DNA of 64,000 nucleotides, taken from Nitrospirota bacterium. Its GTDB lineage: Bacteria > Nitrospirota > Thermodesulfovibrionia > Thermodesulfovibrionales > Magnetobacteriaceae. The notes beneath the pieces are model-generated. The model was not told where the DNA came from. It saw only the letters and a list, made by a program, of their open reading frames with translations, and did not search any database. The translations under genes were made by a program, and so were the position numbers. Of this stretch, positions 45,388 through 61,007 are shown in pieces. Within the stretch, counting starts at the first letter, position 1. The number at the start of each line of letters is the position of its first letter. The stretch is from NCBI GenBank assembly GCA_015233895.1, contig JADFXG010000002.1, positions 124,001 through 188,000 of the forward strand, in the 5' to 3' direction.

Positions 45388-48300
45388 ATGGAAGATAAAG
45401 CAAAAGAAACATCGTCAAAGAGAGTGCTTGATGCGCTTAAGGAGGCACGCTTACGGATAGGGAGTCTTGAAAGCGCTAAGAGAGAACCTATAGCCATAGT
45501 GGGTATGGGTTGCCGTTTCCCTGGAGGATGTAACAGTATTGACTCCTACTGGCAGTTTCTCAGAGACGGAGGAGACGGAATTGTTGAAATCCCATCCTAC
45601 AAGTGGCCTCTTGATGAGCATTACAGCCCTGATCGTAACGCACCGGGGAAAATATACATTACTCGCGGAGGATTTCTAACCGGCATAGATCAGTTTGACG
45701 CAGCGTTTTTTAGAATATCACCAAGAGAAGCAGCAAGCCTTGATCCTCAGCAAAGGTTGCTTCTTGAAGTGGCATGGGAGGCGCTTGAAAACGCAGCGAT
45801 TGCTCCCGATAGCCTATATGGAAGTAATACCGGAGTTTTTATAGGAATTGGACAGAATGATTATTCAAGGCGTGGGCTTACATCGGGCGACCTCAGCCAG
45901 ATAACCACTTATGACGGCACCGGCAACCTTTTTTGTTTTGCCTCAGGGCGGCTATCATACGTTTTAGGGCTTCACGGCCCTGCTGTTTCATTAGACACGG
46001 CGTGTTCATCCTCCCTTGTGGCTATACATTTGGCCTGCACGGCTCTTAGACAAAAAGAATGCTCAACGGCTTTAGCCGGAGGAGTACATTTAGTGTTATC
46101 GCCTGAGATGACGATTTTTCTTTCCAGAGCTAATGTGCTCTCCCCCGATGGCTGCTGTAAGACCTTTGATGTAACAGCGGATGGGTTTTCACGCGGTGAG
46201 GGCTGCGGTATTATAGCGCTTAAGCGTCTGTCCGATGCCATATCTGATGGAGATAATGTGCTTGCTCTAATACGAGGGTCAGCCGTTAATCAGGACGGCC
46301 CTGGAAGCGGTCTTACCGTACCTAATGAGGCAGCACAAGAACGCGTAATACGAGCTGCCCTTCTTAACGCCGGTGTGGAGGCTTCTGAGGTCAGTTTCAT
46401 AGAGGCACACGGCACAGGCACAGCCCTTGGCGACCCCATAGAGGTGGGCGCTCTGGGAGCAGTGTTTAAACCAGTAAAAAGTAAGGGAAATCCCCTTGTT
46501 ATAGGCTCAGTAAAGACAAACTTTGGGCATTTAGAGGCAGCCGCAGGTGTAGCTGGGCTAATAAAAGTGGTGCTTTCAATGCAGCACAGTAAAATTCCGC
46601 CGCATCTGCATTTTAAAACTCCAAACCCACACATTGACTGGGCATCTTTACCAATAGAGGTGGCAGCAGGCGGACAAACTTGGAGCGGAAAAAAAATTGC
46701 CGGAGTCAGCTCCTTTGGCTTTAGCGGAACAAACGCTCACGTTGTGTTAGAGGAGGCTCCAACGCCTCAGAGAGTAGCGCCGGAACTAAAACGCCAGCTT
46801 CATATCCTGACCCTTTCAGCTAAAACCGACGATGCCCTAACTGATCTGACCATCCGATACAGAGAAATGTTGGCCACATCACCCAATATTGAAGTCTCTG
46901 ATCTCTGTTATACGACAAACGTTGGACGCAGCCATTTTGCTAAACGCAGATTCGTAATAGGTGCAACGACTGAGGAGCTTCTAAAGGGTCTTTCTGAAAC
47001 TAATGAATTCCAATTACCAATAGAGCCGAAAAATGCGGAGGAAAACGGCTTGCGGCAGGAACTGGAAACTCTTGGCAAACTTTATGTAAGCGGTAAAGAC
47101 ATTGACTGGAAAAACTTTAATGCTCCCTACGGCTACAGAAAGCTTACTACGCTGCCCACATACCCGTTTGAGCGTAAGAGCTACTGGTTAGATAAGCCAG
47201 AGATTTCTAAAGTAACAGATGTGACGTGGAAATCTCCCGGAGAGCGTATCAGGCTTCCCATGAGTAAAGAGGTGCGGTTTGAATCTGTTTTTACCCCCAA
47301 GTCTCCTTCCTATATTTCAGACCATCGTGTGTTTGGCAGACTCGTTGTAGCCGGAGCATCTCACCTTTCAATGGTGTTACAGGGTTTACAGGAGGCATTT
47401 GGCCTTAATTCATGTACTATTTATGACGTCTTTTTTAGCGCACCTCTTGTGATAGATGAAACACAATTACGACTTGTACAGTTAATAATAGAGCCGCATG
47501 AAAACGATGTTTTTCTTTTTAAACTTATAAGCCAAAGTGAAAAAGACGGCGACGACTCATGGATCACCCATGTAACCGGGAAGGCTGCCCCATTGCGCAA
47601 CCCTGGTGAGCATTTGCCTGAGTTCAATATAAATGTTGAAGAGATTCGTACCAGATGCCAAAATGTAACAGATGGTGATAAGTTCTATGACAAGCTGTAC
47701 AAGGCTGGTTTTGATTTGGGACAAAGTTTCAGGTGGAACAGTGAAATATGGTTTAATAAGGATGAGGTCTTATGCAGCATAGCCTCAAACATTAATTTGC
47801 GATATGAGCAATATCAACTGTATCCAGGCCTTATGGACAGCGCCTTTCAGCTGCTAAGTAATTTCTGGAATGTGGATTCAACAGAGCCAGGCGCCGTAAG
47901 TTATTTGTATGTTCCATTTAGAATATCCGATATATCGTTTTATGGCAAGCCAAACTCTGATGACAAATTACTGTGTTATGCGGCAGTTACCGGGAAAAAC
48001 GATGACGAAAGCAGATTCCCTCCTACAAAACTCCTCATTCTGACAACATCAGGCACACCAATTGCTTTGGTAAACGGGTTTGAATTCCGCAAAGCTGACA
48101 CGGCTGCACTTTTTAAGGCTAAGACAGAAAGCATTAATATACGCAACGAATGGCTTTATGAAATTAAATGGATAGAGGCTGAAGTAAAAACAGTTACTCA
48201 AAAACGGCTGTATGGAAAGCACTTTTTAATTTTTGCCGAAGACTCAGTTTTAGTTACCACGCTGTCTGATATGTTTAGAAAGTCGGGAGCATTAGTCACA

Positions 48301-49974
48301 CATGTATCTTATATTGAAAAACCAGAGGACTATTCTGATCTAATTAAAACTATTGATAACATTACCGATGTTCTGTTTTTTGCAGGCATTGAGGAAACCC
48401 ATATCTCAGACATTGAAGAGAGTCAGAACAAAGGTGCAATATCGTTAGCGTATCTTGTGTCGGAAGTGTTAAAAGCAAATCTGCCAAAAGTCCCGCACCT
48501 TTATGTGATTACAAGAGGTGCTCAGTTTATAAACGGAAAATTTCTTGAGACTTCTCTTGGCTACTCAACCATTTGGGGTATGCCACATGTGATTGACCTT
48601 GAGGCTCCGGCACTCAGAGCAAAATTTATTGATCTTGATCCGGTAATAAAGAATAACGAAATATCTGCCCTGTTTTATCACATTACCGATGACACGGCAG
48701 AGTCACAGGTGTCTTTTAGGGATGGAGTGCGGTATGCGGCAAGGATTTTAAATACTAAAGCAGTCAACGGCACTCTGCAGCTTGACGGTAATTCTACTTA
48801 TATTATAACCGGCGGGCTGGGCGCTTTAGGGCTTGAGCTGTCAGCATGGCTTGCCAAAAAGGGAGCGCGTCATATAGCGCTTACAGGCAGACATGAAGCA
48901 GGTTCAGAGGCAAAAAATAAAATCTCACAACTTGAGACTCAGGGAGTTTCTGTGAATGTGATTTCAGCCGACGTATCTGTCACAGAAGACGTTGAACGGC
49001 TCTTTAGCACAATATCAGAGACAATGCCGCAGGTAAAGGGGATAATCCATGCCGCAGGAGTGTTGGATGACAGTGTGATATTAAACCTTAATGCCGAGAA
49101 ATTCAGAAATGTCATGAAACCAAAAGTCTATGGCACATGGAATCTACACAGGAAAACATCTGATATGAATCTCGACTTTTTCGTATGTTTTTCATCGTTA
49201 GCCGCTATGACAGGCTCTAAGGGACAGGGTAATTACGCCGCAGCCAATGCCTTTATGGATGCGCTTATGCGGTATAGGAGAACTTTAGGGCTTCCCGGCC
49301 TTAGCGTCAACTGGGGAGCATGGGGCGACACGGGTATGGCTTCAAATCTTAGTGATACTGAAAAGATGCGTTTACGCCAAACAGGTGTTGGCACTATTTC
49401 AACTGAAGATGGTCTAAAACTGCTTGAAGACTTAATCACAGAGGGTGCAACAAATGCCGGAGTGTTCCCAGTGGACTGGAGCAAGTACGGAGCAGAAGTA
49501 TATAGTGGGAAAATGCCACCATTTTTCGATTTTGTAAAGGTTAGCGATATAACAAAGTCCTCCGCAGATATTGTCGATTTTTCAGCTGATAATTTCAATA
49601 AGGTGTCGCAGGATGAGCAAATACAGCGGATTACGGATTATATAAGAGAACGGGTATCGGCGGTACTTGGTATGAAGCAGCCTCAGGATATAGGCTTGCG
49701 GGTACGTCTGTTTGATGCAGGCATTGATTCTCTTATGGCTATAGAGCTAAAGAATCGTCTTGAGTCAGGTTTTAAACTTTCGCTTCCTGCTACCCTCGTG
49801 TTTGATTACCCCACAGTTGAGGCCCTTACTGAGTATATCTGCCGAGAGCTTGGAATTTTAGAACAGACAGAGGCAGCGGATAGCGAATCGTCAAAAGACA
49901 TCGAACTGGATTCATTACTTGATGATATAGATACAATGAGCGATGAGGAACTAATGAAGAGATTCAAAAAGTAA
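45388..49974 (+). CDS. Type I polyketide synthase 2: KS-(no AT)-DH-KR-ACP
   Basis: 1528 residues. A short N-terminal docking-like helix (LDALKEARLRIGSLE) leads to KS (about 33-455, Cys206, EAHGTGTALGD, FGHLEAAAG). The KS-to-AT linker is present (HILTLSAKTDDALTDL, CYTTNVGRSHFAKRRF), but the AT is gone. After QLPIEPKNAEENG the chain passes to LGKLYVSGKDIDWKNF, the post-AT linker that in synthase 3 comes after a 300-residue AT. Then DH (His646 in DHRVFGRLVVAGA, Asp817 in YPGLMDSAFQ), KR (GGLGALG, Tyr1283) and ACP (Ser1448, DAGIDSL). It would yield a double bond if an AT acts in trans. Start ATG lies 63 bases after the repeat. C-terminal acidic tail present. Confidence 0.92.
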   Translation: MEDKAKETSSKRVLDALKEARLRIGSLESAKREPIAIVGMGCRFPGGCNSIDSYWQFLRDGGDGIVEIPSYKWPLDEHYSPDRNAPGKIYITRGGFLTGIDQFDAAFFRISPREAASLDPQQRLLLEVAWEALENAAIAPDSLYGSNTGVFIGIGQNDYSRRGLTSGDLSQITTYDGTGNLFCFASGRLSYVLGLHGPAVSLDTACSSSLVAIHLACTALRQKECSTALAGGVHLVLSPEMTIFLSRANVLSPDGCCKTFDVTADGFSRGEGCGIIALKRLSDAISDGDNVLALIRGSAVNQDGPGSGLTVPNEAAQERVIRAALLNAGVEASEVSFIEAHGTGTALGDPIEVGALGAVFKPVKSKGNPLVIGSVKTNFGHLEAAAGVAGLIKVVLSMQHSKIPPHLHFKTPNPHIDWASLPIEVAAGGQTWSGKKIAGVSSFGFSGTNAHVVLEEAPTPQRVAPELKRQLHILTLSAKTDDALTDLTIRYREMLATSPNIEVSDLCYTTNVGRSHFAKRRFVIGATTEELLKGLSETNEFQLPIEPKNAEENGLRQELETLGKLYVSGKDIDWKNFNAPYGYRKLTTLPTYPFERKSYWLDKPEISKVTDVTWKSPGERIRLPMSKEVRFESVFTPKSPSYISDHRVFGRLVVAGASHLSMVLQGLQEAFGLNSCTIYDVFFSAPLVIDETQLRLVQLIIEPHENDVFLFKLISQSEKDGDDSWITHVTGKAAPLRNPGEHLPEFNINVEEIRTRCQNVTDGDKFYDKLYKAGFDLGQSFRWNSEIWFNKDEVLCSIASNINLRYEQYQLYPGLMDSAFQLLSNFWNVDSTEPGAVSYLYVPFRISDISFYGKPNSDDKLLCYAAVTGKNDDESRFPPTKLLILTTSGTPIALVNGFEFRKADTAALFKAKTESINIRNEWLYEIKWIEAEVKTVTQKRLYGKHFLIFAEDSVLVTTLSDMFRKSGALVTHVSYIEKPEDYSDLIKTIDNITDVLFFAGIEETHISDIEESQNKGAISLAYLVSEVLKANLPKVPHLYVITRGAQFINGKFLETSLGYSTIWGMPHVIDLEAPALRAKFIDLDPVIKNNEISALFYHITDDTAESQVSFRDGVRYAARILNTKAVNGTLQLDGNSTYIITGGLGALGLELSAWLAKKGARHIALTGRHEAGSEAKNKISQLETQGVSVNVISADVSVTEDVERLFSTISETMPQVKGIIHAAGVLDDSVILNLNAEKFRNVMKPKVYGTWNLHRKTSDMNLDFFVCFSSLAAMTGSKGQGNYAAANAFMDALMRYRRTLGLPGLSVNWGAWGDTGMASNLSDTEKMRLRQTGVGTISTEDGLKLLEDLITEGATNAGVFPVDWSKYGAEVYSGKMPPFFDFVKVSDITKSSADIVDFSADNFNKVSQDEQIQRITDYIRERVSAVLGMKQPQDIGLRVRLFDAGIDSLMAIELKNRLESGFKLSLPATLVFDYPTVEALTEYICRELGILEQTEAADSESSKDIELDSLLDDIDTMSDEELMKRFKK

Positions 49975-50050
49975 TCGTTATATGTTACAATGGCAAAGAG
50001 CTTATTTGTTGAAAAATATTATTGAACTTTTACAAAATTAAAACAAAAAC

Positions 50051-51445
50051 ATGGAACAGGTAAAAATCAAGGTAAATTTGGTAGGTTCTAATGAGGAGCT
50101 TCTTGTAACTCTTAAAGAGAATATTACCGATGATGGCTATAGCGTATGGCGGGGTGCCGAAAACGGCTCATCTATAGTAATTGACGAAAACAGAAACGGA
50201 GCCGTAATAAACGTTGAAAAAAGTGATAATATAGCTACCGATACTGAAGGTATTATTACCGAATTCCTAAAACTCAGGAATCAATCTAACGAAACAGCCT
50301 CATCAGGAATTGAGCCTACAGATGAGGGCTCAGTCAAAAGTGAACCGCATCCATACGACCCTGAAAAAATAAGAGTAGATACTAAACCATTTTCTTTAAA
50401 ACAGACATATGAGCTTATTGAAAGTGGAGATATAGATTTATCCCCTGATTTTCAGCGCCACTTTGTTTGGAAAGAAATCAAGAAACAGTCAAGATTGATA
50501 GAATCTATAATGCTTAGAATCCCAATCCCTGTGTTTTATCTTTCTCAGGACAATGAGGGCAGATTTCAGGTTGTTGACGGACTGCAACGTCTTACAGTTA
50601 TCAGACGATTTATAAACAATGAATTTGCGTTAAGAGATTTGGAATATCTTACAGATTGTAATAATTGTTTTTATAATTATAATAACGGTGGAGAACCAAA
50701 AAAGATATTGCATCCCAAATATACAAGAAGAATTGAACAAACCCAGCTGATTTTCAATATTATTGATCCACAAACCCCTTTCAGAGTCAAGTATGACCTT
50801 TTCAGAAGAATAAATGAGGGCGGCACGCCGTTAAATAGTCAGGAAATCAGAAATTGCATGGCTAAACCTTATATTAGGAAATTTATTGATGCACTTGCCA
50901 ACTCTGAAGATTTTATAATGGCAACGGATAACAGCATAAAACCTTTAAGAATGCAGGATCAGGAAATGGTATTACGTTTTATCGGTTTTTATTATATAAA
51001 AATATTAGGGAAATCAAGTTATAACGGAGATATGGAAGATTTATTGGATAAAACTCTCGATAGTTTAAATAAGGAAAATGAACATGTATTAAATGAAATC
51101 AAAGAATCGTTTACAAGAGCCATGAAAAACTCTTCTCATTTGTTTGGCAAGACTGCATTCAGAAAATGTTTGCCAGAGCACATAGCTGACGGCGCAAGAA
51201 AGCAGTTTTTAAATAAGCTATTGTTTTTGACATGGTCTGTTTCTTTGGCGCAATTTGATACTCAAAACATTGAAAAAAACAATGATGCTAACTGCCTTGT
51301 TATTCCTCATGCCAACGAACTTCAAAGGAATAATGATTATACTGATTATTATTATGCTTTAACTCATGCGACAAATGACAAAAAAAATGTGGATTCTGCA
51401 TTTGAAAGAGTGCAATCTATAATTAAACAATACATAAGGTACTAA
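50051..51445 (+). CDS. DUF262-family (ParB/Srx-like) protein of a putative defence cassette
   Basis: 464 residues. The first 110 or so are poorly conserved and partly acidic. Then the DUF262 core: FSLKQTYELIESGDIDLSPD, FQRHFVWKEIKKQSRLIESI, RIPIPVFYLSQDNEGRFQ and VVDGLQRLTVIRRF, whose D-G-x-Q-R (Asp176 to Arg180) is the nucleotide-handling motif of GmrSD/BrxU-type proteins. FRRINEGGTPLNSQEIRNC is the second hallmark. The C-terminal half is helical, with no HNH (DUF1524) nuclease seen. It is the first of three tightly packed genes (two-base gap, then a four-base overlap) placed between synthases 2 and 3. AT-rich codon use differs from the synthases. Confidence 0.85.
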   Translation: MEQVKIKVNLVGSNEELLVTLKENITDDGYSVWRGAENGSSIVIDENRNGAVINVEKSDNIATDTEGIITEFLKLRNQSNETASSGIEPTDEGSVKSEPHPYDPEKIRVDTKPFSLKQTYELIESGDIDLSPDFQRHFVWKEIKKQSRLIESIMLRIPIPVFYLSQDNEGRFQVVDGLQRLTVIRRFINNEFALRDLEYLTDCNNCFYNYNNGGEPKKILHPKYTRRIEQTQLIFNIIDPQTPFRVKYDLFRRINEGGTPLNSQEIRNCMAKPYIRKFIDALANSEDFIMATDNSIKPLRMQDQEMVLRFIGFYYIKILGKSSYNGDMEDLLDKTLDSLNKENEHVLNEIKESFTRAMKNSSHLFGKTAFRKCLPEHIADGARKQFLNKLLFLTWSVSLAQFDTQNIEKNNDANCLVIPHANELQRNNDYTDYYYALTHATNDKKNVDSAFERVQSIIKQYIRY

Positions 51446-51446
51446 A

Positions 51447-52634
51447 ATGCTGAAAAAACTAACAATAAATAACTTTAAGTGTTTTTTAGATGAAACAATA
51501 TCATTCAAAGATTTAACAGTATTAGCAGGCGCTAACGGGGTTGGTAAGTCAACTGTTATTCAGGCTTTATTGATCATAAAGCATACGCGTGAAAAATATC
51601 TTCGTTATAATTTTAAAGATTGTCCATCTTCAAAATCAGACTTTGCACCAATAGAGCTAAACCATACATATATGATGAATCTTGGTAATGCGGAAATGGT
51701 TATAAACTCAAAATCAGAAATAAAAGAAATAAAGCTTTCATATTGTGCTGATTCTGATTTTAAAGCTGATTTTGTATATGGCCTCGTACCAGATAAATTA
51801 ATAATATCATTTAAGAACTTACAACAAAAATTTAAAGGTAATACAAATCCAAATGATGATCCTTTTGTTCAAACTGATTTTAACTATCTAAATGCAGAGA
51901 GAATAGGTCCAAGAAACATTCAATCCATGGGGTATCAGGAGTTTATAAATACCGGCTATCAAGGCGAGTTTACAGGACAGGCTATATCTACAGCTGAAAA
52001 TAAAAATCTTACATTGAAAAAAGATGATAAAAGACTTTTTAGACCAGAAGATAACGAAGAGATACAGCTTGCATTAAGAAAACAGATTGAACAGTGGATG
52101 GACTTTATAATACCGGGAATACGTTTGAACGTGGAATCGTTTCCGGCAATAAATACTGTAAGAGTTTCACTTAAAAAAGAGGGAATGGATACTGGATTTT
52201 TACATCCAAACAATATAGGATTTGGGATAACGTTTGTACTTCCTATAGTGGTTACAGGACTTATTGCTTCAAGAGGCTCTATGATAATAGTGGAAAACCC
52301 TGAAGCTCATTTGCATCCTTACGGGCAATCCAAAATAGGGCAGTTTTTGGCTGCTGTTGCATCTCAGGGAATACAGGTGGTAGTAGAAACGCACAGCGAA
52401 CACGTTATAAACGGCATAAGAGTAGCTTCTTTAAAAAACTTTATTACACCGGACAAAATATGTATCAACTTTTTTAGTCACAATAAAGAAAAACAAGCAC
52501 CGGATATAACTGAAATTACGGTTGATGATGAGGGCGATCTTTCCAAATGGCCTCGTGATTTTTTTGATCAGGAGGAAAGAGATTTGGCAGAAATCCATAG
52601 ACTTAGAAAAAAGAGAAAATCTAACAATATATGA
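51447..52634 (+). CDS. AAA (OLD/SMC-like, DUF3696-type) ATPase of the cassette
   Basis: 395 residues. The start MLKKLTINNFKCFLDETISF and Walker A GANGVGKST (28-36) are typical of RecF/OLD-like AAA ATPases. The C-terminal part has IIVENPEAHLHPYGQSKIGQ (Walker B region, Glu283) and QGIQVVVETHSEHVINGIR, matching the AAA_15/DUF3696 group, with an EITVDDEGDLSKWPRDFF end typical of it. No TOPRIM nuclease domain is visible, so any effector activity must be elsewhere. It begins two bases after the DUF262 gene and overlaps the next gene by four bases, so the three are surely one operon. Confidence 0.88.
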   Translation: MLKKLTINNFKCFLDETISFKDLTVLAGANGVGKSTVIQALLIIKHTREKYLRYNFKDCPSSKSDFAPIELNHTYMMNLGNAEMVINSKSEIKEIKLSYCADSDFKADFVYGLVPDKLIISFKNLQQKFKGNTNPNDDPFVQTDFNYLNAERIGPRNIQSMGYQEFINTGYQGEFTGQAISTAENKNLTLKKDDKRLFRPEDNEEIQLALRKQIEQWMDFIIPGIRLNVESFPAINTVRVSLKKEGMDTGFLHPNNIGFGITFVLPIVVTGLIASRGSMIIVENPEAHLHPYGQSKIGQFLAAVASQGIQVVVETHSEHVINGIRVASLKNFITPDKICINFFSHNKEKQAPDITEITVDDEGDLSKWPRDFFDQEERDLAEIHRLRKKRKSNNI

Positions 52635-53533
52635 ATACTGTTTTTTATTTATTCAACAAGTCTTTCAAAAATATCAACAATCTAACAATTGAAGAGCTTG
52701 GCGAAAAAATTTATGATTTTTTTGAATTGTGCGATAACATAAAAGATTCCGGTGATGAAATTTTCAAAAGTAATTCTATATATGAGGAACAGTTTTTTGA
52801 TAATTATGCGCTTTATGAGATAATGTATAAAGAGAGAGGAATAGCGCTTAAACCTGAACACAAGAGAGCTTTATTAAAACTTGATCACATTACTAAAACC
52901 TCCTTTAATGATGTTCAGATGACCGAACAATTAAATGAAACTACAGAAAGTAATTTATATGGGCTTCTCTGCTTCAATAGAATTGAAACTCCAGATAAAA
53001 TTGACTCCAGACTACTTATCTCTGTACAACAAGATTGGTATTCTTTTCATAGATATTATTTATACATTTTTTATATTTCTGAAGAGAGCTTTTTTGAAAG
53101 ATGTAGAAAATATTTCCCTGAGCTGTTTTTTCATGAAAGAAATAGATATGCGCTAAAAACATTAAGTGGCGGCCTTGAGCTCTTCTCAGAAACAATAGTA
53201 TCTCATTTAGAGAAGCTGAACGATGAATTCAGGAAATATTATAATTATCAGTCCATAGCTCAATCCATTGATAAAATAATACAAGCATTTTGTTCGGCAA
53301 ATAATATCAAAGGCTCATTACAAGGGGAAAATCACGATCAACTGTATTTTGAGTTTTACAATACCCAAACAAAAACCCTCGAAAAGATATGCTGTGACCC
53401 TCATTTAAAATTAAGAACGCCTGATAGACCTGGCAATACCCAAAGATATGAAAACCGTATATATTTCCATCAAGGGAAAAAAGGCGTACAAGGTGGAAAA
53501 ATACTGATAGGCCACATTGGTGAGCATTTATAG
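52631..53533 (+). CDS. Unknown third protein of the cassette (possible effector)
   Basis: 300 residues, starting by ATGA overlap with the ATPase gene. No family recognised. It is rich in aromatic and charged residues, with a predicted alpha-helical body (FEERCRKYFPELFFHE-like region about 155-175, DEFRKYYNYQSIAQSIDKII about 196-215). The conspicuous C-terminal segment has EKICCDPHLKL, RYENRIYFHQGK and GKILIGHIGEHL. His, Cys and Asp residues here could be catalytic or bind metal, but that is a guess. There is no signal peptide or membrane helix. Its position makes it the likely executioner or sensor of the cassette. Synthase 3 starts 26 bases later. Confidence 0.7.
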   Translation: MNTVFYLFNKSFKNINNLTIEELGEKIYDFFELCDNIKDSGDEIFKSNSIYEEQFFDNYALYEIMYKERGIALKPEHKRALLKLDHITKTSFNDVQMTEQLNETTESNLYGLLCFNRIETPDKIDSRLLISVQQDWYSFHRYYLYIFYISEESFFERCRKYFPELFFHERNRYALKTLSGGLELFSETIVSHLEKLNDEFRKYYNYQSIAQSIDKIIQAFCSANNIKGSLQGENHDQLYFEFYNTQTKTLEKICCDPHLKLRTPDRPGNTQRYENRIYFHQGKKGVQGGKILIGHIGEHL

Positions 53534-53559
53534 AATGCGGAGTTAACTACAAGGAGATT

Positions 53560-56500
53560 ATGACTGATCTATCAAAACGAATTCAGGGGATGTCGCCTGT
53601 TAAGCTTGCTTTTGCGGCAGAGCAGATGGCATCCAAGTATGAGATACTTAATGCCGAACCTATTGCCATAATAGGGATTGGGTGCAGGTTTCCGGGCAAG
53701 GCCAATAATCCGAAGTCGTACTGGACACTTCTTAAATCGGCAACAGAGGTAAGAACAGAGGTTCCGGCAAGCAGGTGGGATATAAATGAATACTACGCCT
53801 CTGACCCCGATGCTCCAGGTAAGATGTACTGCCGATACGGTGGTTTTCTTGATAACGTTTATGATACCGATGCGCACTTTTTTGGTATTTCTCCAAGAGA
53901 GGCTGTAACGATAGACCCGCAGCACAGGCTGCTTTTAGAGGTCGCATGGGAGGCGCTGGAACACGCCGGAATCCCTGCCGAAAAACTTTATGGAACTCCT
54001 GTCGGGGCTTTTATAGGGGTTAGCACTTTTGAATATGCGGCAGTAAAGATAGGGTTAAACGACCCAGCCAAAATAGACGCCTACTACAGCACCGGAGGAT
54101 ATCTTAGCATGTGTGCCGGGAGGTTGTCCTATACGTTTGGTTTTACCGGGCCCTGTATGTCAATAGACACAGCCTGTTCCTCCTCTTTGGTAGCGGTGCA
54201 TCTGGCCAGCCAAAGTCTCAGGCGCAGGGAGTGCTCGCTTGCTCTTGCCGGAGGAGTTAATCTGTTACTTTCCCCCGAATTAAGCATTAGTTTTTCAAAG
54301 GCGCGGATGCTCTCCCCTGAAGGCCGCTGTAAGACTTTTGATGCCGGAGCGGATGGTTATGTGCGCGGCGAAGGGTGTGGCGTTGTAGTTCTAAAACGTC
54401 TTTCCGATGCGCTCTCTGATGGAGATAACGTCCTTGCGCTAATCAGAGGCAGCGCTGTTAATCAGGACGGACCTAGCGGCGGACTCACTGTGCCTAGCGG
54501 CCCTGCTCAGGAACGCATAATACGCAAAGCACTTTCTGATAGTGGTGTGGAACCCGCAGAGGTCAGTTATATAGAAGCCCACGGCACAGGCACATCACTT
54601 GGCGACCCCATAGAGGTTGGAGCTTTAGGAGCAGTTTTTAAAAATGTAAAAACAAAATCCGATCCGCTTTTAATTGGTTCAGTTAAAACTAACTTCGGAC
54701 ATCTGGAGGCTGCCTCAGGTGTTGCAGGGCTTATAAAAGTAGTGCTTTCTATGCAGCACGGGAAAATCCCACCGCATCTGCACTTTAAAACCCCAAGCCC
54801 GCACATTGATTGGGCAGCTTTACCCATCGAGGTGGTTTCAGGCGGGCACACATGGAGCGGTAGAAAAATTGCCGGAGTAAGTTCCTTTGGGGCAAGCGGA
54901 ACAAACGCTCATGTGGTATTGGAGGAGGCGCCTCTGCATAAAAAAACGGAGTCCAATCTCAATCGGCCTGTTCACATACTAACCATATCGGCTAAAACCG
55001 ATGAATCCCTCACTGAGCTAAGCAACCGATATAAAGAAATATTGCAATCCTCAGACGTTACGATTAGCGACATTTGTTATACGGCAAACGTTGGACGAAA
55101 TCATTTTGCCAAGCGCAGATTTGCCATAGGTGAAACTGCTGATGAGTTTATTAACGGGCTATCTGAGGCACAAGAAATACAGTTACCAGATGAACGTCCT
55201 AAGATTGCATTTCTTTTTACAGGACAAGGCGGACTTTCACAAAACATGGGACGCAGCCTTTACGAAAGCAGCCCTGTCTTCAGAGATACCCTCACAGAAT
55301 GTGACAGGATATTGCAAAAACACATGGATGTGCCGCTTTTGGAACTGATGTACGGAGGAGTTTCAACTGAGGTTCTCAATGAGACAAGGTACGCTCAGCC
55401 TGTTCTATTTTCTCTTGAATATAGTTTATACAAGTTATGGCAATCGTGGGGAGTTGAGCCGGGAGCATGTTTAGGCCATAGCATAGGTGAATATACTGCT
55501 GCTTGTGTCTCAGGAGTGTTTTCGCTTGAGGATGCTTTAATGCTTGTAGCTCTGCGTGGACAATTAATGTGGGAGGCCCCCGGAAATGGCACAATGGCAG
55601 CGGTGTTTGCAAGTGAAACTTTGGTGCTGGAGGAGTTATTTTCTGATGATGTCTCCATAGCAGCGGTTAATGGCCATGACAGCATTGTGATTTCAGGACT
55701 TAAGGATAGTGTAATGGAAACGTGCAAGCGTCTTTCAGAGCGTGGCATAAAAAGCAAAGAACTTATAGTCTCACACGGGTTTCACTCACGCTTGATGGAG
55801 CCGGTATTGGAGAGTTTTGCTCAAACTGCTGACAAAGTTGTCTATCACAGAGGCAAAATACCTGTTGTATCAAACGTAAGCGGAGATTTTTATCGCGGCG
55901 AGGAATTAAGTACCCCCTACTGGGTTAAACACCTTAGAGGCACAGTCAGGTTCTTAGCAGGCATTGAAACACTATATAGGGACGGTTACCGGGTGTTTTT
56001 GGAGTTGGGCCCTGGAACAGTGCTTCTTGGCATGGGCAGAAGGTGTGTTGATGATAAAGCAACTGCATGGCTTCCATCCTTAAGAGCGAGTCAGAATGAC
56101 TGGCGGCAAATACTAAAATCCCTCGGAGGACTATACGTCTGCGGAATGGATATAAACTGGAGAGATTTTAACGCTCCCTACGGCTATAAGAAAGTTACAA
56201 CGCTGCCAACATATCCATTTGCGCGCAAACGATATGAAATAGACAGATCTACAGCCTCTAAGGTAAAAGAGCTAAAGTGGAAATCTCCCGGTATAAAAAT
56301 GATGCTTCCCATGAGCACGGAGATTCGGTTTGAGTCAGTCTTTAGTGCCGTAGTTCCGTCTTATATCCCCGACCATCGTATATTCGGCAAACTAATAGTT
56401 GCCGGAGCGTCTCACATCTCTATGGTGATACAGGCTGCAAAAGAGGTCTTTGGCAGCGGACACTGTAAGCTTGAGGATTTTGTTTTTCAGCAGCCAGTTG

Positions 56501-59500
56501 TAGTTCCGGAGGACGGCACGCTAAATCTCCAACTTATCCTTACTCCGTTACAGAAAGATGTTTACACGTTTCAGTTGGTAAGCGCCTCAAGTAGTGACAT
56601 TGGTAACGAGTCATGGAGCACACATATAACCGGTAAACTTGAAAAATCAAGCTCTGAGGCTCTTAGCTCACATGAGGTGATGCAGATTGATAAAACAATT
56701 AAAGGCTGGCAGGAAATTAATATAGAAGAATTTTACGAGGAAATAAATAAATCCGGTCATCACCTTGGAGCGTCTTTTCTTTGGAATAAACACATTTGGC
56801 ATCATAAGAAAGAAGCCTTTAATAAAATGCAGTGTCCTCAGTTTGACGGCAATGCTTATGAATATCTCCTTTACCCAGGGCTCATAGATTCCTGTGTGCA
56901 CTTTTTTTGTGTGAATGGCCCTGAGGCGGTATTTGGTAAAGAAACGGCAGATACCTTAAAGCATGAGTACATCTACATACCTTTTTCCATAGAATGCGTG
57001 GACTTTTATCAGCCGCCAACTTCAGGGCATACACTATGGTGTCATACAATATTTAATGATAATGAAAAATCCATTAAAAGCATAACCGGTGATATCACAC
57101 TCATTGATGAAACCGGACAAGTGATAGCGCAATTTACAGGGTTTACTGCAAGACAGTTTAGCCGTGCCTCTATTGCTTTAGATGAGTCACATGAGGATTT
57201 TCTTTACGAGACAGATTGGGAAAGAAAAGAGATTGAGCAAAATTCTGAGTTACCGGCAATTGACGGTACATGGGCGATATTTACTGACAGAGAAGAGGTT
57301 GGAACGCTCCTGTCATCCCTGCTTAAAGAAAACGGTTTAAATAGTATCACTGTAAGACCCGGCACTGCATACAGAGAGCTTTCCAACAGTGGAGGCTATG
57401 AGATAAACCCTCAGTCTGCGAGCGATTTTGAGAAGTTCTTTTCCACAATCGAAAAACTCTCCGGTGTTGTTTACCTATGGAGTGCCGGAGTGGTTGATAC
57501 AAAAGACGAGCAGGGCAATATTGGAGTTATTACACTACTTCATACAGTACAAGCACTTGTAAAACATGGCAACGCAAAGCTTATGATCATAACCCGCGGA
57601 GTGTGGCCTGTTTTGGAAGATAAAGACACCAGCACAGGTTTTTGGCATTCGCCGGTGTGGGGTTTTGGGCGGGTAATGTTTCTTGAACACCCGGAACTTA
57701 CCGGCAAACTGGTGGATTTAGCAGCAATTACCGGACAAGACGAAAATCTGTTTCTTTACAATGAACTGTTTTATGGCGGAAAAGAACAACAAACTGCTAT
57801 GAGAGATGGCATCAGATACGTTTGCCGCCTTAAGAGACGTAAGGCTAAAAGTGCCGGCAGAGCGTCAGCATCTGAAAACACGGCACTAAGGCTAACTGAG
57901 TACGGCAGGCTGGATAAACTGGAGTTAAAGCCTGTTGGAAGAGAAAATCCCTCTGAACACGAGGTGGAGATAGAGGTAAAGGCAGCAGGGCTAAATTTCC
58001 GTGATGTTCTGAACGCTCTCGGAATGCTCAGAGAGTACACCGGCAATAAGGCAGCAGAGGATGTAACGTTAGGCTTTGAATGCTGTGGAGTTGTCAGCCG
58101 TATCGGTACAGGTGTAAAAGACATAAAACCCGGCGATTCTGTTATAGCAGCGCCGGTAAACGGAGCATTTTCAACCTACACTATAGCCTCATCATCGTTT
58201 ACAATGCTAATGCCTGAAAACATTTCATATGAGGAGGCTGCCACTATACCAACATATCTAACCGCATGGTATGGCCTGATAGAGCTAAGCGGGCTCAAAA
58301 CTGGCGACAGCATACTGATTCATGCAGCGGCAGGGGGAGTGGGGCTTGCTGCTGTAAACATTGCAAAGATGGTTGGAGCGGATATTTATGCTACTGCAAG
58401 CCGTGGCAAATGGGATTTTTTAAGGGCACAGGGCGTTAATCACATAATGGATTCCCGGAGCCTTGATTTTTCCGATGAGATAATAGCTCTCACTCAAGGA
58501 CGTGGCGTCAGTGTCGTATTAAACAGCCTTAACGGCGAATACATCCCTAAAAGCCTTAGGGTGCTTTCAAATGGTGGACGTTTCATTGAAATTGGCAAAA
58601 TTGGCATATGGACTGAGGAGGATGTAAAACGTCTCCGGCCAGATGTGTCATACTATACATTCGACATGGGCGAAGTATCGCAAAAAAAACCATCCGCTGT
58701 AAGAGACATGTTACAGCAAATTTCATCTCATGTCAGCTCAGGAGAGCTAAACCCCCTGTTTCATAAGGTGTTTCCGATTACCGATGCTGTGTCGGCATTC
58801 AGATATATGGCGGCAGCAAAACACACCGGAAAAGTGGTAATTGACACATCAGCAAAAACAGGATTTATACGAAATGATGCAACGTATTTGATTACAGGCG
58901 GACTGGGCGCTCTGGGACTTGAACTATCAAGCTGGCTTGTAGAAAGGGGAGTGCGTCACATAGTGCTGACAGGCAGACGTGTGCCAGGTGAGAAGGCACG
59001 TGAAAAAATCTCCCGTCTTGAAGCACAAGGAGCCATTGTTGTGGTAATTTCAGCCGATGTCTCCTCTATGGATGATGTTGAGCGGCTTTTTAGTGCCATA
59101 GCTAAGACGATGCCGCCTCTACGCGGGATAATACACGCCGCCGGAGTGTTGGATGACAGTATGATTTTAAATCAGAGTGTAGAGAAATTCCAAAAAGTGA
59201 TGGCTCCAAAAGTTTCCGGCACATGGAACCTGCACCTGAAAACGCTTGATAAGAATCTCGACTTTTTTGTTTGTTTTTCATCGGTTGCTGCCCTGATTGG
59301 GTCAAAGGGCCAGAGCAATTACGCTTCTGCCAATGCCTTTATGGATGCACTGATGCGGTACAGGAGAGGCTTAGGGCTTAACGGCCTAAGCATTAACTGG
59401 GGAGCGTGGGGCGATGTTGGCATGGCCTCACGTCTTGGAGAGACTGAAAAGGCGCGGTTAGAGCGGCAAGGAATAGGGAGCATTCCACTTAAAGAGGGCC

Positions 59501-60072
59501 TAACGGCACTTGAAACTTTCATTACTGAAAATGTTGTCAATGTCTCAGTGTTGCCAATAGACTGGGGCAAATACGAAACTCATGTGTATGCAGGGGAGAT
59601 GCCGCCATTTTTTGACTCTGTAAGAAAGGTGAGTAAAGAAGTGAAGCCAACCGTAAATGTTTTAAGTTTTTCGGATGAACTTATCAAACTGCCAACGGAT
59701 CAGCACTTAAAGCAGATAACCGCCTACGTAAGACAACAGGTATCGGCAGTGCTGGCACTGGAGTCATCGCAGGAGATAGGTTTGAGGGAGCGGCTTTTTG
59801 ATGCAGGCATTGATTCTCTGATGGCCATAGAGCTAAAGAATCGTCTTGAAGCGGGCTTTAAACGCACTCTTTCAGCAACCCTGGTGTTTGATTATCCCAC
59901 AGTTGAGGCTCTTGCAAAGTATCTGTATGATAGTTTCTCCGCTGTACCGGATAAACCAATTATAAAACCAGAAGAACAGCAGCCTGATGAGCTATCCTCC
60001 GACCTGTCTGATGACGACATAGCGCGGCAATTGGCAGAGGAACTTCAAGACATTGACAATAAAAAGCGCTGA
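53560..60072 (+). CDS. Type I polyketide synthase 3: KS-AT-DH-ER-KR-ACP (fully reducing)
   Basis: 2170 residues. The N-terminal docking-like helix (MSPVKLAFAAEQMASKYE) precedes KS (about 33-455, Cys206), AT (about 546-850, GHSIGEY with Ser641, HGFH motif), DH (His939 in DHRIFGKLIVAGA, Asp1110 and His1114), ER (about 1455-1770, AGLNFRDVLNALGML, NADPH loop HAAAGGVGLAAV from His1588), KR (GGLGALG, Tyr1921) and ACP (Ser2086). The module should reduce its beta-carbon to a methylene. No thioesterase, reductase or condensation domain follows. The chain ends in an acidic tail (LSDDDIARQLAEELQDID) like those of synthases 1 and 2, hinting at a further partner not in the window. Strong similarity to synthase 2 outside the AT and ER suggests duplication. 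Confidence 0.94.
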   Translation: MTDLSKRIQGMSPVKLAFAAEQMASKYEILNAEPIAIIGIGCRFPGKANNPKSYWTLLKSATEVRTEVPASRWDINEYYASDPDAPGKMYCRYGGFLDNVYDTDAHFFGISPREAVTIDPQHRLLLEVAWEALEHAGIPAEKLYGTPVGAFIGVSTFEYAAVKIGLNDPAKIDAYYSTGGYLSMCAGRLSYTFGFTGPCMSIDTACSSSLVAVHLASQSLRRRECSLALAGGVNLLLSPELSISFSKARMLSPEGRCKTFDAGADGYVRGEGCGVVVLKRLSDALSDGDNVLALIRGSAVNQDGPSGGLTVPSGPAQERIIRKALSDSGVEPAEVSYIEAHGTGTSLGDPIEVGALGAVFKNVKTKSDPLLIGSVKTNFGHLEAASGVAGLIKVVLSMQHGKIPPHLHFKTPSPHIDWAALPIEVVSGGHTWSGRKIAGVSSFGASGTNAHVVLEEAPLHKKTESNLNRPVHILTISAKTDESLTELSNRYKEILQSSDVTISDICYTANVGRNHFAKRRFAIGETADEFINGLSEAQEIQLPDERPKIAFLFTGQGGLSQNMGRSLYESSPVFRDTLTECDRILQKHMDVPLLELMYGGVSTEVLNETRYAQPVLFSLEYSLYKLWQSWGVEPGACLGHSIGEYTAACVSGVFSLEDALMLVALRGQLMWEAPGNGTMAAVFASETLVLEELFSDDVSIAAVNGHDSIVISGLKDSVMETCKRLSERGIKSKELIVSHGFHSRLMEPVLESFAQTADKVVYHRGKIPVVSNVSGDFYRGEELSTPYWVKHLRGTVRFLAGIETLYRDGYRVFLELGPGTVLLGMGRRCVDDKATAWLPSLRASQNDWRQILKSLGGLYVCGMDINWRDFNAPYGYKKVTTLPTYPFARKRYEIDRSTASKVKELKWKSPGIKMMLPMSTEIRFESVFSAVVPSYIPDHRIFGKLIVAGASHISMVIQAAKEVFGSGHCKLEDFVFQQPVVVPEDGTLNLQLILTPLQKDVYTFQLVSASSSDIGNESWSTHITGKLEKSSSEALSSHEVMQIDKTIKGWQEINIEEFYEEINKSGHHLGASFLWNKHIWHHKKEAFNKMQCPQFDGNAYEYLLYPGLIDSCVHFFCVNGPEAVFGKETADTLKHEYIYIPFSIECVDFYQPPTSGHTLWCHTIFNDNEKSIKSITGDITLIDETGQVIAQFTGFTARQFSRASIALDESHEDFLYETDWERKEIEQNSELPAIDGTWAIFTDREEVGTLLSSLLKENGLNSITVRPGTAYRELSNSGGYEINPQSASDFEKFFSTIEKLSGVVYLWSAGVVDTKDEQGNIGVITLLHTVQALVKHGNAKLMIITRGVWPVLEDKDTSTGFWHSPVWGFGRVMFLEHPELTGKLVDLAAITGQDENLFLYNELFYGGKEQQTAMRDGIRYVCRLKRRKAKSAGRASASENTALRLTEYGRLDKLELKPVGRENPSEHEVEIEVKAAGLNFRDVLNALGMLREYTGNKAAEDVTLGFECCGVVSRIGTGVKDIKPGDSVIAAPVNGAFSTYTIASSSFTMLMPENISYEEAATIPTYLTAWYGLIELSGLKTGDSILIHAAAGGVGLAAVNIAKMVGADIYATASRGKWDFLRAQGVNHIMDSRSLDFSDEIIALTQGRGVSVVLNSLNGEYIPKSLRVLSNGGRFIEIGKIGIWTEEDVKRLRPDVSYYTFDMGEVSQKKPSAVRDMLQQISSHVSSGELNPLFHKVFPITDAVSAFRYMAAAKHTGKVVIDTSAKTGFIRNDATYLITGGLGALGLELSSWLVERGVRHIVLTGRRVPGEKAREKISRLEAQGAIVVVISADVSSMDDVERLFSAIAKTMPPLRGIIHAAGVLDDSMILNQSVEKFQKVMAPKVSGTWNLHLKTLDKNLDFFVCFSSVAALIGSKGQSNYASANAFMDALMRYRRGLGLNGLSINWGAWGDVGMASRLGETEKARLERQGIGSIPLKEGLTALETFITENVVNVSVLPIDWGKYETHVYAGEMPPFFDSVRKVSKEVKPTVNVLSFSDELIKLPTDQHLKQITAYVRQQVSAVLALESSQEIGLRERLFDAGIDSLMAIELKNRLEAGFKRTLSATLVFDYPTVEALAKYLYDSFSAVPDKPIIKPEEQQPDELSSDLSDDDIARQLAEELQDIDNKKR

Positions 60073-60234: not shown

Positions 60235-60522
60235 TTGAAGCTTGATGAATTAAAGATGAAATATCCCGTAGGATTTGAAAAAGCAGTTCATATCACTAAG
60301 GATGAATTGGAACAGCAGATTCGTTTAATGGCGGCACTTAAGATGTTTGAACTCGGAAAGATATCATCCGGCAGGGCTGCGGAACTTGCTGGTATGTCAC
60401 GTGTTGAGTTTTTTGAGGCTTGTGGCAGATATCGTGTAAGTGTTTTTAATTATTCCAATGAGGAGATTGGAGATGAGCTGAAAAATGAACTTGATACTAT
60501 AGAAAAAATTTTCAAACTATGA
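60235..60522 (+). CDS. UPF0175-family antitoxin
   Basis: 95 residues, TTG start six bases after GGGAGG. UPF0175 features: LEQQIRLMAALKMFELGKIS, SGRAAELAGMSRVEFFEACG (helix-turn-helix-like) and a GRYRVSVFNYSNEEIGDE tail that would wrap the toxin. The gene partners a DUF3368 PIN-like protein with a four-base overlap, the standard pair. The promoter probably lies in the AT-rich 160 bases after synthase 3, and the HTH suggests self-repression. Confidence 0.88.
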   Translation: MKLDELKMKYPVGFEKAVHITKDELEQQIRLMAALKMFELGKISSGRAAELAGMSRVEFFEACGRYRVSVFNYSNEEIGDELKNELDTIEKIFKL

Positions 60523-61007
60523 AAGTGATTTCAAATACAGGACCCATTATTGCACTGGCAAAGATAGATAGATTATCACTTATTAAAAGACTATTTGAGA
60601 AGGTCTTTATACCACCTATGGTCTATAAGGAGTTATGCGCAAAAACTGGAGACGAATGGGAGTCAATTGAAGAGGCTTTAGATGACTTTATTGTAGTTAA
60701 AGAGCTTCCCTTGGTAGATGAATCAGTCAGACTAACTCTCGCCGATCTTGATGAAGGTGAAAAACAAGCTGTAGGTCTTGCCTCCGTAATAAATGATGAA
60801 AAAATACTGCTTATGGATGACAGAGCGGGAAGAAAGGCTGCTCAAAAACTAAATATAACAGTGACAGGAATTGTGGGTATACTACTTGCTGCAAAAAAAA
60901 GAGGACTAATACACAAGGTGTCGGAGATTCTTGAGGCTGTCAGAGAAAACGGATATTGGCTTTCAAATAAGGTAATTGAGGTAGCTGCAAAACTCTCTGG
61001 TGAATAG
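60519..61007 (+). CDS. DUF3368 PIN-like toxin
   Basis: 162 residues starting MKVISNTGPIIALAKIDRLS, the DUF3368 opening. As often in this family, Asn takes the place of the first PIN aspartate. Later acidic residues are in place: ADLDEGEKQAVGLA, then ILLMDDRAGRKAAQKLNITV, then GIVGILLAAKKRGLI. Members are presumed ribonuclease toxins. Together with the upstream antitoxin it forms a type II pair at the edge of the polyketide region. Confidence 0.88.
   Translation: MKVISNTGPIIALAKIDRLSLIKRLFEKVFIPPMVYKELCAKTGDEWESIEEALDDFIVVKELPLVDESVRLTLADLDEGEKQAVGLASVINDEKILLMDDRAGRKAAQKLNITVTGIVGILLAAKKRGLIHKVSEILEAVRENGYWLSNKVIEVAAKLSGE

Follow-up and report, generated by a model that had tools for sequence, protein, structure and literature searches.

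A very probable Menshen operon at the junction of two polyketide synthase genes in a Nitrospirota bacterium

The stretch of Nitrospirota DNA analyzed here (64,000 nucleotides, hereafter the window) contains two long polyketide synthase genes between which lie three compact genes encoding a DUF262 protein, an ATPase of the SMC/OLD-like type and a third protein that ends in a conserved β-sheet. All five genes are on the same strand, and their positions in the window, along with the extent of the inserted segment, are as follows.

45388..49974, forward strand: upstream polyketide synthase gene, open over its length, the family being read from the sequence; context, outside the defense system
49975..53559, forward strand: the full inserted segment, as judged from the empty site in a genome of the same genus (G001), with low GC and GC3 as further evidence
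50051..51445, forward strand: nsnA, 464 aa, DUF262/GmrSD_N protein with a ParB/Srx-type NTPase domain (PADLOC, Pfam, alignment, AF2)
51447..52634, forward strand: nsnB, 395 aa, SMC/OLD-like AAA (ABC-type) ATPase with a C-terminal DUF3696 region (PADLOC, Pfam, motifs)
52631..53533, forward strand: nsnC, 300 aa (PADLOC, alignments, AF2)
53560..60072, forward strand: downstream polyketide synthase gene, open over its length and preceded by its own AAGGAG Shine-Dalgarno sequence, the family being read from the sequence; context

The three genes are tightly packed: by the coordinates of the open reading frames, a single base, rather than the two originally counted, separates nsnA from nsnB, and nsnB overlaps nsnC by four bases, as had been noted (start at 52631, end at 52634). 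The distances to the polyketide synthase genes are 76 bp upstream and 26 bp downstream. Because full-length homologues of all three proteins are known in several phyla, these reading frames are, judging by such conservation, genuine genes and not chance ones. Just past the polyketide genes, at positions 60519-61007, a DUF3368 protein is encoded, possibly a remnant of a toxin-antitoxin module; DUF3368 is often found at the end of PIN-type toxins.

Comparison with the PADLOC models assigns each of the three proteins to a component of Menshen (NsnA-NsnB-NsnC), which was reportedly described as an anti-phage defense system by Millman et al. 2022 and to the domain polymorphism of which a 2025 paper is said to be devoted. 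Protein 1 matches the NsnA model PDLC03877 (E=9.3e-118), protein 2 the NsnB model PDLC03878 (E=3e-105) and protein 3 the NsnC model PDLC03899 (E=9.7e-74, with residues 1-300 aligned to profile positions 1-299), and in each case the protein's own Menshen model is the top match by a wide margin. The locus combines an NsnA-family DUF262 protein in which the D-G-x-Q-R motif is intact, an NsnB-family AAA/OLD-like ATPase with intact Walker A and B motifs, and a full-length NsnC that adjoins NsnB, encoded by neighboring genes in the A-B-C order on one strand, the same order as in the relatives, which reside in plasmid and defense neighborhoods. The window locus departs from Menshen as a known system in the presence of an extra N-terminal domain of NsnA that is known in only some of the homologues, in the location of the operon within a polyketide gene cluster, and in the lack of TOPRIM in NsnB. 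A review (PMC10952713) associates an OLD TOPRIM domain with one Menshen component and reports that Menshen resistance is lost when the DUF262 gene is mutated or deleted. Neither TOPRIM nor PF20469 was found by Pfam search in any of the three proteins at E<=1, and the NsnB proteins of the other aligned loci likewise finish in a DUF3696-type stretch rather than TOPRIM; the association with TOPRIM is not treated here as a defining feature of Menshen.

Taken together, these observations make it highly probable that the trio is a complete Menshen operon, with a predicted anti-phage activity, that was acquired horizontally and whose insertion point is precisely where the stop of one polyketide synthase gene meets the start of the other. 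The compact defense operon proposed in the first-pass annotation is borne out, given that each of the three genes matches its Menshen model, whereas the companion proposal, that the third gene encodes a new effector, has to be abandoned: protein 3 is NsnC, a known Menshen component, and a new family of effectors finds no support. The locus is, accordingly, a new example of a known defense system, and a new kind of defense is not indicated.

NsnA contains the GmrSD_N (DUF262) domain at residues 121-269 (Pfam, E=1.6e-23), within which the VVDGLQR motif is intact, with D176, G177, Q179 and R180 invariant in an alignment of 18 homologues; the expectation of a DUF262 protein with an unimpaired D-G-x-Q-R motif is thereby upheld. 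In the AF2 model (pLDDT 86.7), the region C-terminal to this domain is helical, without a recognizable nuclease domain, and Foldseek comparison yielded only weak matches to ParB, Noc and PadC, below significance but consistent with a ParB/Srx-type domain. The extra domain, approximately residues 1-85 (window 50051-50306), is predicted to consist of five strands and a helix; it is common to the NsnA proteins of loci L020 and L033, is absent from most of the aligned NsnA and belongs to no Pfam family. The NsnA genes of L020 and L033, and that of L016 as well, are similar in length to nsnA of the window. The presence of a DUF262 NTPase domain with the D-G-x-Q-R motif makes NsnA resemble GmrSD, BrxU and SspE, the proteins of type IV restriction and phosphorothioate sensing, and a profile comparison relates it weakly to 7p9k, a DUF262 protein that we take to be BrxU. 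However, the Menshen trio lacks the DUF1524/HNH nuclease, in line with the earlier remark that HNH is missing, because no HNH/DUF1524 model of Pfam matches any of the three proteins, either as a domain or as a partner, and its DUF262 protein is instead accompanied by a separate ATPase and NsnC. NsnA also resembles the DUF262 protein of PD-T4-2, its second-best PADLOC match (2.4e-36), but this match is far weaker than that to the NsnA model and covers only part of the protein.

In NsnB, the Pfam matches are to AAA_15 (2e-26), AAA_21 and DUF3696 (3e-11), and the Walker A (GANGVGKS), Walker B (IIVENPEAHLHP) and H-S (THSEH) motifs are invariant across 13 homologues. With its ABC-type ATPase core and these motifs, NsnB is akin to Septu PtuA, PARIS AriA, Gabija GajA and the OLD ATPases, but its own model scores 3e-105 compared with 1.8e-27 for AriA. 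Furthermore, GajA and OLD possess TOPRIM, which NsnB lacks, as the description of an OLD/SMC-like ATPase without TOPRIM had anticipated, and Septu includes an HNH partner that has no counterpart here; among the three proteins, there is no PtuB HNH, AriB TOPRIM or GajB helicase.

NCBIfam names none of the three proteins above its cut-offs, and for NsnC, neither Pfam nor NCBIfam provides a family above cut-off, so that the earlier verdict of no known family holds for these collections and fails for PADLOC, where NsnC is recognized over its full length. The profile and structure comparisons that had been proposed for this protein thus lead to a known component whose fold lacks a solved match. The AF2 fold itself is confident (pLDDT 92.4, pTM 0.90), and Foldseek against PDB and BFVD gave no match at E<=0.001 and low TM-scores. 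The strongest conservation is in the C-terminal sheet, with C255, P257, H258, K260, R276, Y278, F279, I296, G297 and H299 as invariant residues, and the protein ends in RIYFHQGKKGVQGGKILIGHIGEHL; across two highly divergent NsnC groups, H258, R276, F279, G297 and H299 show no variation and K260 almost none. The N-terminal part varies between subfamilies while the sheet stays constant, and PADLOC divides NsnC among many models, two different ones being best matched within the source genome. The strand order of NsnC and an R-[IL]-[YH]-F pattern suggested the idea of a RelE/ParE toxin at the C-terminus; this candidate was rejected, as hhalign against the ParE_toxin proteins of related genomes gave probabilities of 0.1-0.2%, and a PDB profile search with the C-terminal domain returned only implausible matches, with no RelE/ParE-like chain among them.

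The trio is widespread. A profile scan of public genomes identified 24 NsnC loci, compared with no matches in a genome-contig scan with a single NsnC sequence, and these loci come from Bacteroidota, Gamma- and Alphaproteobacteria, Spirochaetia, Nitrospirota, Lachnospiraceae and related Firmicutes, and a Methanosarcinales archaeon. Plasmid relatives were found in Bernardetia and Paracoccus, in each case behind DUF262 and DUF3696 genes. Among the 26 NsnC loci from the plasmid and genome collections, the NsnA-NsnB-NsnC order is present in 20, a count that includes three loci with a broken gene (L019, L035 and L036); in the remaining six, a Cas2-like protein takes the place of NsnA (two loci), NsnA is missing (one), or the locus is a remnant (two) or lies on a cut contig (one). 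In the viral contigs and phage records searched, NsnC was not found.

The neighbors of these loci are of a defensive or mobile character in several genomes. Next to the trio, there are HamA and HamB of Hachiman in Paracoccus (pPAN1), a type IIG enzyme in Sphingobium, and, directly downstream, a type III methyltransferase and restriction endonuclease in Pedobacter and Flavobacterium. In the defense island at L022 (1744-8011), an AAA ATPase gene stands with an AriB-like gene (PARIS-like), PDC-M31-like genes come next, and NsnB-NsnC follow with no NsnA. On the Methylobacterium plasmid pMaqPC3 (L088, 1088-6915), a Menshen-like trio is directly preceded by Mu-type transposase and AAA ATPase genes, an arrangement that suggests carriage by a transposon. 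The recurrence of the trio in unrelated genomes, which the first-pass annotation had proposed to examine, is evident from the A-B-C order in several phyla, with Hachiman, restriction or transposon genes alongside the trio in several instances. The two outcomes named there as fatal to a defense role, that is, a trio confined to this polyketide cluster and a housekeeping third protein without links to mobile or defense DNA, both conflict with this distribution, which is not tied to polyketide genes and shows both kinds of links.

Two individual loci deserve mention as observations in their own right. In Candidatus Thiomargarita nelsonii (L036, 4313-8186), a TnpB-like gene, recognized by visual inspection of the sequence, interrupts the Menshen NsnB, and Candidatus Magnetomicrobium cryptolimnococcus (L023, 7932-8869, on contig G008:C51) retains a degraded remnant of NsnC, with neither NsnA nor NsnB.

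The site of insertion is apparent from comparison with G001, a genome from the same genus assembled into one contig, in which the two polyketide genes abut and no match to the trio was found. Window positions 45484-49970 and 53560-60062 align with an uninterrupted run of bases in this genome (L053/L054), and at its junction, the upstream stop and the downstream start share the sequence ATGA, a 4-bp overlap. With this empty site and with both flanking genes open, insertion of the trio without breaking either polyketide gene, as initially surmised, is well supported by the sequence comparison. At the borders, there are no terminal or target-site repeats beyond 8 bases, and no integrase or transposase gene lies between the two polyketide genes.

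The direction of the change, gain as opposed to loss, is read from composition and from absence in the rest of the genus, the G001 junction being the only readable empty one and no clean junction having been found in an outgroup. The trio has a GC content of 0.32-0.34, and its GC3 of 0.25-0.30 is the lowest among the 24 window genes measured, the others ranging from 0.33 to 0.55; an NsnC of the window type was not found in the other three same-genus genomes that were searched. It could be argued that the trio belonged to the polyketide operon ancestrally and that G001 lost it, inasmuch as this is the sole readable empty junction and the match in another genome, G003, stops inside a polyketide gene. 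The low GC3 and the absence of the window-type NsnC speak against such an ancestral trio, as do the ATGA overlap in G001, which is a simple type of coupled junction, and the fact that, of the loci fetched, those of an archaeal genome match NsnA and NsnB best; we consider the loss scenario improbable. The window NsnA is 49% identical to that of the archaeal genome (L020) and, because it is only 35% identical to the second NsnA of the source genome, is by this comparison not a recent local duplicate.

Another possibility is that the polyketide cluster has recruited the trio to its own ends, such as self-protection or regulation, and that the trio no longer functions in defense. The shared strand, the spacing of 76 and 26 bp, and a promoter scan that detected no promoter-like sites above shuffles at the trio make co-transcription with the polyketide genes plausible and, to that extent, are compatible with co-option. 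Nevertheless, the same-genus genome G001 retains the polyketide genes without the trio, the other copies, where their neighbors were identified, are accompanied by genes of restriction, Hachiman and PARIS-like systems and of transposons, and all catalytic motifs are kept as in the homologues. Co-option, which had been floated initially, finds no support in these comparisons and appears extremely improbable. We favor a horizontally acquired defense operon, which is predicted to be active in this host.

The source genome harbors a second Menshen operon (L006 9432-12710, corresponding to G000:C11 49431-52709), with an NsnC of another subfamily (PDLC03879). In this copy, NsnB is frameshifted just before Walker B. 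The same frameshift is present in G003 (L089), where the stretch is 98.3% identical, and therefore, a sequencing error in one assembly is unlikely; the second copy would be either a shared relic or a case of unusual recoding. Given this frameshift, the copy in the window may be the only intact Menshen of the source genome.

In two loci, L027 (6510-6779, Marinilabiliales) and L037 (6069-6344, Bacteroides), a Cas2-like protein of 90-92 aa occupies the NsnA position, ahead of full-length NsnB and NsnC. These small proteins are homologous to each other (E=3e-13), neither has a PADLOC match, and one of them shows a weak match to Cas2 (E=0.0015, below the curated cut-off). In light of this replacement, the most economical reading appears to be a constant NsnB-NsnC core combined with an exchangeable output subunit, with NsnC doing the sensing. 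Under this model, NsnB would dimerize as an SMC/OLD-like ATPase, and NsnC, with its variable N-terminal part and constant C-terminal sheet, would sense infection and/or dock on NsnB; ATP turnover by NsnB would then release or activate NsnA, the ParB/Srx-fold NTPase, which would carry the output, probably on DNA, such that the phage or the infected cell is stopped. The specific assignment of sensing to NsnC and of output to NsnA seems about evenly poised.

The invariant H/K/R/Y/H cluster of NsnC could equally represent an active site. NsnC would then be the effector, a nuclease or another enzyme of an undescribed fold, with H258-K260-R276-Y278-H299 as the catalytic residues; NsnB would serve as the gate and NsnA as the sensor, perhaps recognizing modified DNA in the manner of GmrSD and BrxU. 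The invariance of H258, R276, F279, G297 and H299, and the near-invariance of K260, across such divergent groups fit this possibility, and so does the lack of another obvious seat for the executing activity, with no nuclease domain in NsnA and no TOPRIM in NsnB. Conversely, there is no nuclease match for NsnC by sequence profile or by fold, the RelE/ParE similarity is unsupported, and it is NsnA that is the swapped part, exchange for another protein being more usual for effectors; we regard an NsnC effector gated in this manner as less likely than not. A hybrid arrangement, in which NsnC is a catalytic effector of undescribed fold with the same active site and is driven, through the NsnB ATPase, by a first subunit that can be either a DUF262 or a Cas2-like protein, appears rather unlikely. 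The early assertion that only the third protein can supply the activity overreaches, because NsnC has no recognizable nuclease fold and NsnA is swapped in two loci; for these same reasons, either NsnA or NsnC may be the effector.

The findings reported here add a probable magnetotactic host to those of Menshen, since the acquiring Nitrospirota lineage is probably magnetotactic. They also provide a well-resolved pair of empty and occupied sites, in which a defense operon slots into a translationally coupled junction and leaves both genes unbroken. For those who study Menshen, NsnC comes with a confidently predicted fold unlike any solved structure and a short list of invariant residues, which should be useful. 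Finally, the observation that a Cas2-like protein can fill the NsnA slot, with NsnB and NsnC held constant, makes the effector question directly testable.
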